Assembly (NCBI GenBank): GCA_016190995.1
Contig: JACPPN010000256.1
Span: 1 to 43,163, forward strand
DNA from: Acidobacteriota bacterium
GTDB taxonomy: Bacteria > Acidobacteriota > Vicinamibacteria > Vicinamibacterales > JACPPN01
Length of the DNA stretch: 43,163 bases
Reading direction: 5' to 3'
The notes under the pieces were generated by a model. That model was given only the letters and a program-made list of their open reading frames with translations. It was not told the DNA's origin and did not search any database. Below, piece by piece: positions 40,127-43,163 of the stretch (its first letter is position 1; every line of letters starts with the position of its first letter). A program made the position numbers and the translations under genes.

Positions 40127-40223
40127 GTCTTCCTCCGATGTCGATGAGGCAAGTGTGAAGAGAGCACGCAGCCTACCAGACAATGCGCGGTTCTGTCCAA
40201 GCCACGGCCGCCGCTCCGGTGAA

Positions 40224-40232
40224 TGGCATAAT
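40224..40232 (+). promoter_or_regulatory. Extended -10 promoter, probable leaderless start of moaA
   Basis: TGGCATAAT (TG at 40224-40225, hexamer CATAAT at 40227-40232) lies seven bases upstream of the moaA ATG (40240). Transcription would start within a base or two of the ATG, giving a leaderless mRNA. No Shine-Dalgarno sequence is present before the ATG. No clear -35 is visible, as tolerated for extended -10 promoters. Confidence 0.4.
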
Positions 40233-40239
40233 AGACGCC

Positions 40240-41265
40240 ATGGCCCTTCAGCTCGATCGGTTGGGCCGGCCGCTTCGCAGCCTCCGGCTGTCCGTGACGG
40301 ACCGCTGCAATATCCGCTGTTCTTACTGCATGCCGGAGGCGGATTACGTGTGGCTGCCGCGCCAGGACATCCTGACGTTCGAGGAGATCGTTCGGCTCGT
40401 CGACGTCTTCATCGACCTTGGTGTCGATCGCGTCCGGCTCACCGGCGGCGAGCCGCTGATTCGCAAGAATCTCCCGCACCTGGTCGAGTTGCTTGCCGAG
40501 CGATCCGCTCTGAGCGAGATCGCGCTTACGACAAACGGCATCCTCCTCCCGGACCACGCTGCCGATCTCAAGCGTGCGGGCCTCGACCGGGTCACCGTCA
40601 GCCTCGACACCTTGAGACCCGATCGGTTTCGTGCGCTGACGCGATACGACGAACACGCGCGCGTGCTCCGCGGGATCGATGCCGCCATCGAAGCCGGCTT
40701 TCGCGGACTGAAGCTCGACGCCGTCATCCTTCGCGGGGTGAACGACGATGAGCTGGTACGTCTGCTGGAATATGGAACGCAGATTCAGGCGGAAGTGCGG
40801 TTCATCGAGTACATGGACGTAGGTGGCGCGACGCGCTGGGCCTGGCAGGATGTCGTCTCGCGGCGCGAAATGCTCGATCGTCTCGAGCGTCACTACGGCC
40901 CCGTCACACCCGTCGTCGAGGACACGTCAGCGCCCGCCGCTCGATTCACGCTGCCGGACGGAACGACATTTGGGGTCATTTCCTCCACGACCGAGCCGTT
41001 CTGCCGACGATGCGATCGCAGCCGCCTGACAGCCGATGGACTCTGGTACCTCTGCCTGTATGCAACCGAGGGGATCGATCTGCGCGCGCCGCTCCGCGGC
41101 GGGATGAGCCGCGCGGCCGTGCGTGATCTGATCGCGTCACGCTGGCAGGCGCGCGTCGATCGCGGGGCGGAGGAACGCCTGCAGTCGAAGGATCGGCATG
41201 CCTTCATCACGGTTGGCCGTCTCAAGAAAGACGCGCATCTCGAGATGCACACGCGCGGCGGCTAG
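40240..41265 (+). CDS. moaA: GTP 3',8-cyclase MoaA
   Basis: A 341-residue MoaA, which converts GTP to 3',8-cyclo-GTP in the first step of molybdenum cofactor synthesis with MoaC. The radical SAM cluster is CNIRCSYC (Cys 23, 27, 30). RLTGGEPL and TTNGILL follow. The second cluster uses CRRCDRSRLTADGLWYLC near residue 255. The C-terminal Gly-Gly (HTRGG) needed for activity in the family is present. ATG at 40240 is favoured because homology starts there; a more upstream GTG would add 19 unrelated residues. No other moa/moe genes are in the window. It converges with the following radical SAM gene across 146 bp containing a small hairpin CGCGG-CCTT-CCGCG (41322-41335). Confidence 0.95.
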   Translation: MALQLDRLGRPLRSLRLSVTDRCNIRCSYCMPEADYVWLPRQDILTFEEIVRLVDVFIDLGVDRVRLTGGEPLIRKNLPHLVELLAERSALSEIALTTNGILLPDHAADLKRAGLDRVTVSLDTLRPDRFRALTRYDEHARVLRGIDAAIEAGFRGLKLDAVILRGVNDDELVRLLEYGTQIQAEVRFIEYMDVGGATRWAWQDVVSRREMLDRLERHYGPVTPVVEDTSAPAARFTLPDGTTFGVISSTTEPFCRRCDRSRLTADGLWYLCLYATEGIDLRAPLRGGMSRAAVRDLIASRWQARVDRGAEERLQSKDRHAFITVGRLKKDAHLEMHTRGG

Positions 41266-41411: not shown

Positions 41412-43163
41412 TCACACGACCGGCTCCGGCGTCTCCTCCCTGGACTTCTTCAATCCCTGAATCTGGATGACGGGCCGGGCCTCTTCCTTCAGCACGACCT
41501 GGCGATAGAGCGCGGCCATCCGCGCGTTCTCCTGCTGCTGCTTCAGCCGCTCGGCCCGCGCGCGCAGCTTCTCTTCGCGCGCATTCCTGGCAATCCCCGC
41601 CGCGTCGAGATCCGTCTGGCGGCCCGCCGCGACCGCGACCGGATTGAGCACGAGGTGATGCTCGATCGAGTCGAGCTGCACGCTCCTGCCGCCCGCGAAG
41701 ATCTCATGACGGCCATGTTCTTCGTACCACCGAGTAAGCGTGGCGGTCATGTGCATCTTCTCGATGATCTGCCGCCAGCCGATGCCGGTGTTGTACGCGC
41801 AGAAGGAGATCTCCCCTTCCTCGGTCGCGTACGGGATGATGCAGCGCTCGGTGCGGCGGAAGTCGTAGTTGAAGAGATCCTGGAACCACATGCCCGCGAT
41901 GAACAGGAAGTTCCAGCGGTCCGACCGGCGCTTCTCGATGTCCTCCAACGTGCGCTCGCCGTCTACCCGCCCGTACGCGCCGCGCTGCGCCTTCTTGGTC
42001 GCGCCGAAGGTCTTGTCGAACTTCGTCATCAAGTCGAGCAGCCTGAAATGGGTCGGCGCCTTGAATGGGTCGTAGTTCCGCATCAGCGAGAGCGCCATCC
42101 CGAAAATCGAGAAGACCCTGCCGCGCGCGGCGTCGTTGATCTTCGCGATGTCCTTGGCAAGCCGCCCGGCGTCGACGAACGCGGTGAAGGGCACGGCCTC
42201 CTTGGTCTCCTTGTCGATCATCACGGCCATGCCGACGCCGCAGTTCGGATGACAGCCGCAGTTCAGCTGCCCCCACTCCGCCCGCGGTCCATGCACCAGG
42301 TCGGACCAGTCGGTGAAGGTCCCCATGAAGGAAATCGGGAACCAGTCGCGCGCCGGCTCGCCGATGCCGGTCTGTTTCTTCACGTCGTAGGCCAGGTGGG
42401 ACAGCGTGTACCGCTGGGCATGCCGCCGCTCGTCGGTGATCTCCTCGTCGCGACCGGTAAACGACACCGGCTGGAACGAAAGGAAGTTGATCTTCTTCGG
42501 ATTGTCGAGCGCGAACTGAATGATCCGTCCGACCTGCTCGTTGTTGATCCCGTTGACGATCGTGACGACGGGAACGATGTCGACGCCATTGTTGTGCAGG
42601 TTCTCGATGGCGCGCAGCTTGACGTCGAACAGGTTGCCGACCATCCGGTGCGCGTTCGCGGCGTTGCCGATACCGTCGAACTGCAGATAGACGTAACGCA
42701 GTCCGGCTTCCGCGGCGGCGCGACAGAACTGTGGACTCTTGGCGAACTCGATTCCATTGGTCGCCGCCTGCACGCTGTTGTACCCGACTTGGCGGGCATA
42801 GCGGACCGCATCGAGGAAGTACGGCGAGATGGTCGGCTCGCCGCCCGAGAACTGCACCGACAGCTGACGCTTCGGCTTGATGGAGATCGCGTTGTCCAGC
42901 AGCGTCTTGATCTCCTCCCAGCTCAATTCGTGCACGAACCCGACCTGGTTCGCGTCCATGAAGCACGGATCGCACATCATGTTGCAGCGGTTGGTCAGGT
43001 CGACCGTCAGGACCGCGCCGCGCCCGTACTTGATGGTGCTGCTGCCGTGGTGGTGCAGCTTCTCGTCGCTGTGCGCGCGAATGTCGCTGCCGGGAAAGCT
43101 CTCTTCGAGATGGCGGAAGAAGGCGGTGTCGATCGCCATCACGTCCTCGAAGTGCCCGTGGAC
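41412..43163 (-). CDS. Tes/MJ0619-like radical SAM enzyme (5' end open)
   Basis: At least 575 residues. From the ATG at 43139 the radical SAM motif is CNMMCDPC (Cys 52, 56, 59), followed by QFSGGEPTISPYF, AATNGIEFAKS and YLQFDGIGN. CGCHPNC (294-300) is an extra cysteine motif. More Cys occur around 430 (CIIPY, FCAYNTG). The C-terminal 80 residues are charged and coiled-coil-like. The domain order resembles archaeal tetraether lipid synthase (MJ0619) and bacterial relatives; the rubredoxin-like N-terminus of the archaeal enzyme is not seen. The frame stays open to the window edge with coding-like sequence (HGHFEDV) and all G/C third positions, so the true start is probably off-window. Function as a lipid C-C coupling enzyme is inferred, not shown. 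Confidence 0.82.
   Translation of the reverse strand, partial: VHGHFEDVMAIDTAFFRHLEESFPGSDIRAHSDEKLHHHGSSTIKYGRGAVLTVDLTNRCNMMCDPCFMDANQVGFVHELSWEEIKTLLDNAISIKPKRQLSVQFSGGEPTISPYFLDAVRYARQVGYNSVQAATNGIEFAKSPQFCRAAAEAGLRYVYLQFDGIGNAANAHRMVGNLFDVKLRAIENLHNNGVDIVPVVTIVNGINNEQVGRIIQFALDNPKKINFLSFQPVSFTGRDEEITDERRHAQRYTLSHLAYDVKKQTGIGEPARDWFPISFMGTFTDWSDLVHGPRAEWGQLNCGCHPNCGVGMAVMIDKETKEAVPFTAFVDAGRLAKDIAKINDAARGRVFSIFGMALSLMRNYDPFKAPTHFRLLDLMTKFDKTFGATKKAQRGAYGRVDGERTLEDIEKRRSDRWNFLFIAGMWFQDLFNYDFRRTERCIIPYATEEGEISFCAYNTGIGWRQIIEKMHMTATLTRWYEEHGRHEIFAGGRSVQLDSIEHHLVLNPVAVAAGRQTDLDAAGIARNAREEKLRARAERLKQQQENARMAALYRQVVLKEEARPVIQIQGLKKSREETPEPVV

Follow-up and report, generated by a model that had tools for sequence, protein, structure and literature searches.

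Soil and lake palaeothermometers in wide use are based on brGDGTs, whose building block is iso-diabolic acid; publications up to 2025 still describe the enzyme that forms it in Acidobacteriota as unknown or unconfirmed (PMC10087280, PMC11868695). The locus considered here raises the question of whether a radical SAM gene at the edge of an acidobacterial contig could encode such an enzyme. The original prediction had taken the gene for a candidate membrane-spanning lipid synthase related to archaeal Tes (GDGT-MAS; MJ0619, PDB 7TOL and 7TOM), with a radical SAM core, a CGCHPNC motif and further cysteines, a long charged C-terminus and an apparent lack of the rubredoxin-like start. The general hypothesis was already published in 2022 (Zeng; Halamka; PMC8941075, PMC10087280); what is new here is a separate subfamily, its cofactor change and its phyletic match.

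The window, meaning the whole stretch of DNA that was analysed, is the entire contig G000:C207, 43,163 bp long, and belongs to a draft assembly of 3.82 Mb in 400 contigs with a completeness of 86%. The features of the gene are listed below, with conservation counted over its clade of 158 sequences, 157 of them full-length.

41412..43163, minus strand: Tes-like radical SAM gene, truncated at its 5′ side by the contig end; one open frame, with orthologues reaching about 110 codons further upstream.
43158..43160, minus strand: residue 2, the His of CPxHG in a rubredoxin-like site (MJ0619 H36 equivalent); His in 158 of 158, the three Cys lying beyond the contig end.
43047..43055, minus strand: HxH (H37, H39) at the Tes [Fe4S4]N cysteine site; the C77 position is His in 158 of 158, and H37 is kept in 157 of 158.
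42963..42986, minus strand: radical SAM motif CX3CX2C (C60/C64/C67); cysteines in 158 of 158.
42240..42260, minus strand: CGCHPNC, comprising C302, C304 and C308 (equivalent to MJ0619 C338).
41886..41891, minus strand: Met-Trp; M425 is the equivalent of Met439, a labile cluster ligand according to PMC9433317, and W426 stands where Tes has His440.
41799..41843, minus strand: C441 (41841-41843), Y445 and C455 (41799-41801), equivalent to C455, Tyr459 and C470 of MJ0619, in the region of the putative C-terminal catalytic cluster.
41415..41723, minus strand: charged, partly helical C-terminal extension, specific to the clade and absent from MJ0619.

The gene is real and under purifying selection. 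The closest orthologues share 82–84% protein identity, and the differences from the copy at L004, counted as 71/63/187 over the three codon positions, fall mostly at the third, as in a conserved protein gene. Of about 695 codons 583 are present, running from a frame that is open at the contig end to the TGA stop at 41412-41414. Orthologues from the same order (n = 27; 684–716 aa) begin about 110 codons upstream of the window copy, so the GTG at 43140-43142 was rejected as the real start. Their N-terminus is an amphipathic helix (moment 0.42–0.58 in four orthologues) followed by C-P-x-C...C-P-x-H-G, and a rubredoxin-like C..C...C..H arrangement, equivalent to C9, C12 and C33 with the His, is carried by all 157 full-length clade sequences. 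These positions correspond to the rubredoxin iron ligands of MJ0619, namely C9, C12, C33 and H36 in Lloyd et al. (PMC9433317), and the Pfam model PF23545 (cut-off 27) scores 51.4 in the orthologue L015 and 54.6 in a second full-length clade member. Since residue 2 of the window copy is the His of CPxHG and the full-length relatives carry the complete Cys3-His set, the absence of a rubredoxin domain was rejected as an artefact of the contig edge, and that part of the original prediction falls.

The charged C-terminus, by contrast with the rubredoxin claim, was correctly described: the extension of 103 residues holds 12 Arg, 5 Lys and 13 Glu, and together with the N-terminal amphipathic helix it distinguishes the clade from MJ0619. 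In two clade members (L072:5918-7732 in family f56 and L073:5987-7783 in f32) a Cys-rich GCGCH tail replaces the long charged extension.

The radical SAM core was recovered by Pfam (PF04055, E 5.9e-19), and the resemblance to MJ0619 was borne out by a phmmer match to 7TOL at E 2e-55. The profile built from the clade (A1) matches 7TOL at E 4.4e-86 among solved structures, with the next structure at 1.1e-6. NCBI's model of Tes (NF045702 in NCBIfam) sets its cut-off at 450 bits, below which lie the window protein (281.9) and the full-length clade members scanned (310.9–328); identity to MJ0619, whose sequence was read off a printed alignment and checked against residue numbers in the paper, is 30–35% for the clade and 41–47% for true Tes. 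The second-best family is the radical SAM (seleno)protein TrsS (NF045646), which shares the radical SAM core and scores the clade at 192.7–213.6 bits against a cut-off of 490.

In a tree of 72 rows a branch of support 100 splits off the clade, which joins bacterial Tes and MJ0619 and is set apart from TrsS, which forms its own group, from a TrsS-like group X, and from AhbC/NirJ and MoaA. This was a quick, midpoint-rooted tree with long-branch warnings and one archaeal sequence, and the branching order inside the Tes group is not fixed by it. On tree and scores together, TrsS, AhbC/NirJ and MoaA were rejected as the closest family, and the clade did not group with any of the non-lipid radical SAM enzymes sampled. 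By these comparisons the clade is a Tes-type subfamily in its own right that NCBI's model does not count as Tes, and we propose that it is a distinct acidobacterial sister clade of Tes, largely inherited vertically. A second, deep-branching clade copy is found in an f35 genome (L070:5847-7796), with 50% identity to L015, and many f35 genomes have two matches. Members of group X (L199, L203; also G149:C1 and G149:C2) keep a CPxDCGLC motif, and genomes of the two-chromosome, Chloracidobacterium-like type have comparable matches; one TrsS gene (L194, G139:C89:18776-20071) is interrupted in frame by a TGA that may encode selenocysteine.

The metal sites reveal both what the clade shares with Tes and what separates it. 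All 158 sequences retain the equivalents of C338, M439, C455, C470 and Tyr459, as well as those of F106, G145, Y195, D199, V236, Q268, S271, T273 and R275. Judged by conservation, C338, C455 and C470 would be ligands of the C-terminal cluster, with Met439 named as a cluster ligand of MJ0619 in PMC9433317. On the other side, the cysteines C73, C77 and C80, which together with a His ligate [Fe4S4]N in Tes and are kept by 14 of 14 acidobacterial Tes, are replaced throughout the clade by a gap, His, and Ser or Ala, respectively (158/158); the His440 column is Trp in all 158 sequences, and the Arg210 column has no conservation among them. C302 is invariant in the clade and absent from the Tes sampled, while C304 is common to the clade and 11 of 14 acidobacterial Tes. 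The clade keeps the site at which MJ0619 forms its carbon–sulfur intermediate and loses a surface cluster, and the missing [Fe4S4]N ligands, the His440 to Trp exchange and the unconserved Arg210 suggest that its chemistry may differ. The cofactor difference from Tes is not in the rubredoxin site; it lies in a real loss of the [Fe4S4]N ligands which, if the reading below is true, would reveal what cofactors of Tes are needed for coupling.

An AlphaFold2 model of the L015 orthologue (pLDDT 76, pTM 0.83) superimposes on 7TOM over 477 of 498 residues, using model residues 57-595, with a VIA Z of 32.9 and an rmsd of 3.9, and Foldseek matches it to GDGT-MAS at E 9.9e-32. The next-best fold match is MoaA, at a VIA Z of 17.2 over 265 residues. 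With this predicted match along the whole length, the clade has in common with MJ0619 the helical cap that there encloses the lipid pockets; in the MJ0619 crystals these pockets are occupied by bacterial phosphatidic acid (PMC9433317). As a sequence proxy, hydrophobic positions between C338 and M439 coincide with those of MJ0619 at 32 sites against 21.3 expected, a value reached in 0 of 5,000 shuffles.

The distribution of the clade within the phylum was compared with published lipid data. When 297 Acidobacteriota genomes were searched with the Tes model, 295 gave some match and the scores were two-peaked, with true Tes (above the cut-off) in only 34 and a much larger set, peaking near 315–350 bits, that corresponds to the clade. 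The clade profile was run on 396 genomes at least 90% complete, and family counts were made by hand over the genomes of the Tes scan. Every genome of families f23 (30/30), f35 (18/18) and f44 (5/5; two-chromosome, Chloracidobacterium-like) has the clade gene, as do 25 of 30 genomes of the window's own order, the other five being without a full gene, while the clade profile search found it in none of the genomes of f37 (0/26), f55 (0/12) and f16 (0/2). True Tes occurs in three of the 30 f23 genomes and in none of those of f35, f44 or the same order. Titles of the clade loci name Bryobacteraceae, Acidobacteriaceae, Terriglobia, Vicinamibacteria, Luteitalea and Chloracidobacterium, and L148 is Acidipila rosea. 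Of seven subdivisions surveyed, 1, 3, 4 and 6 are reported to contain iso-diabolic acid (PMC13274423), as is Chloracidobacterium (PMC12816986). The distribution of the clade parallels these lineages suggestively, with the names of f35, f37 and f55 inferred; since the agreement is at the level of lineages, the same pattern could arise for any gene that was already present in the ancestor of these classes.

Taken together, these data point to the clade gene encoding a probably membrane-associated radical SAM enzyme that most likely couples two iso-C15 tails through their terminal carbons to give membrane-spanning iso-diabolic acid lipids, a reading to which we assign a probability of roughly 0.6. 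Counting against it are the changes at the [Fe4S4]N, His440 and Arg210 positions, the 20 neighbourhoods in which a lipid-gene operon was sought and not found, the five same-order genomes without a full gene, and Solibacter usitatus, which makes brGDGTs and has two Tes homologues but yielded no iso-diabolic acid (PMC10087280). Of the lipid synthase originally predicted, the kinship with Tes is upheld by sequence, tree and fold; a role in iso-diabolic acid formation is backed by the phyletic match, not by chemistry. For this candidate iso-diabolic acid synthase we infer substrate, product and membrane association, and the mechanism would follow by analogy with MJ0619. The substrates would be the iso-branched (iso-C15) acyl tails of preformed glycerolipids; iso-C15 and phytanyl tails end in the same iso-branched group (PMC8941075). 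Cleavage of SAM at the radical SAM cluster would yield a 5′-deoxyadenosyl radical that abstracts hydrogen from the terminal methyl of one tail, and a sulfide of the C-terminal [Fe4S4] cluster would hold the resulting carbon radical. A further round of SAM cleavage would then activate the other tail, which would displace the cluster and form the C–C bond. Electrons would reach the cluster without [Fe4S4]N, possibly via the rubredoxin-like site or a partner protein.

An alternative, which we regard as distinctly less probable, is that the enzyme acts on lipid tails by radical chemistry without being the iso-diabolic acid synthase: it might crosslink, cyclise or otherwise modify membrane lipids, or couple diether tails for brGDGTs, leaving iso-diabolic acid to Mss or another enzyme. 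The cofactor and active-site changes relative to Tes would agree with this, as would three f23 genomes (L063, L064 and L065; G128:C24, G300:C7 and G172:C21) that have true Tes only a few kb away from the clade gene, which hints at separate tasks for the two in a single lipid pathway, and a report that 11 of 97 acidobacterial MAGs from the Black Sea have Mss homologues (PMC11868695). Against it, nearly every genome of the families that correspond to lineages with iso-diabolic acid has the clade gene, and most of them lack true Tes; moreover, all putative ligands of the cluster that forms the C–S bond are retained. A small gene, cl3, is common to L063, L064 and L065, adjoining or near Tes.

Rather unlikely, in our judgement, is a non-lipid radical SAM enzyme for peptide, cofactor or RNA maturation that has retained a Tes-like fold. 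The score below the Tes cut-off, with TrsS as the second-best family, is compatible with such a role, and a comparison of 20 neighbourhoods brought up no lipid genes in a conserved operon, save true Tes near the clade gene in the three genomes above. Yet the tree and the whole-length fold place the clade with Tes, the cap region retains the hydrophobic pattern, and no conserved partner, such as a precursor peptide, was seen adjoining the clade gene in those same 20 neighbourhoods. Least probable, for all the sequence similarity of the gene to Tes, is direct orthology with archaeal Tes or with Mss, the synthase of Thermotoga and Bacillota. Its 282–328 bits stand against a cut-off of 450, and true Tes is present as a separate protein in the same phylum, close by in three genomes: these acidobacterial Tes (L033-L062) form a neighbouring tree group, score 472–619 bits and, unlike the clade, keep all four metal sites with an intact [Fe4S4]N. 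Mss is likened to the clade by its proposed tail-to-tail coupling of fatty acids and by an architecture reported as Tes-like (PMC13274423); however, no protein of Thermotoga maritima, the source of Mss, matches the Tes model at 1e-40, whereas the truncated window gene does so at 9e-70, and it is by this search, not by the Mss sequence, that the two are set apart.

Published strains allow the reading of the clade as an iso-diabolic acid synthase to be placed beside lipid profiles. Edaphobacter aggregans makes iso-diabolic acid and brGDGT-Ia and has one Tes homologue, with 32% identity to the query MA_1486 (Zeng et al., PMC8941075), a value within the 30–35% of the clade and not the 41–47% of true Tes, so it is probably a clade member. 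With the same query, the homologues of Koribacter and Solibacter gave 42% and 40% identity (PMC8941075) and are probably true Tes, the type to which the acidobacterial Tes sampled here probably belong. In Solibacter usitatus brGDGTs are made, iso-diabolic acid was undetected and there are two Tes homologues (PMC10087280), which would fit one true Tes and one clade enzyme. A broader scenario, which we put forward tentatively as somewhat short of an even chance, is that Acidobacteriota possess a dedicated Tes-related iso-diabolic acid synthase with no [Fe4S4]N and an altered catalytic-cluster environment, that it is the source of most acidobacterial membrane-spanning lipids, and that the rarer true Tes makes brGDGTs from diethers. 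Such a division of labour would explain the lipid difference between Edaphobacter, probably with the clade enzyme only, and Solibacter, probably with both.

Two further observations concern the surrounding genome. In the window a MoaA-like gene (40183-41265, plus strand) is convergent with the Tes-like gene, and several same-order genomes have a MoaA-like match on the same contig within tens of kb. Elsewhere in the window's own genome, L214:4781-8533 (G000:C218, minus strand) encodes a protein of 1251 aa that contains DUF2229 as well as two BcrAD_BadFG stretches and resembles the PlsA/Ger ester-to-ether enzymes; PF09989 is found in 10 of 40 same-order genomes. Two such activation domains are associated with Ger (PMC13274423), and the protein may therefore allow ether formation.
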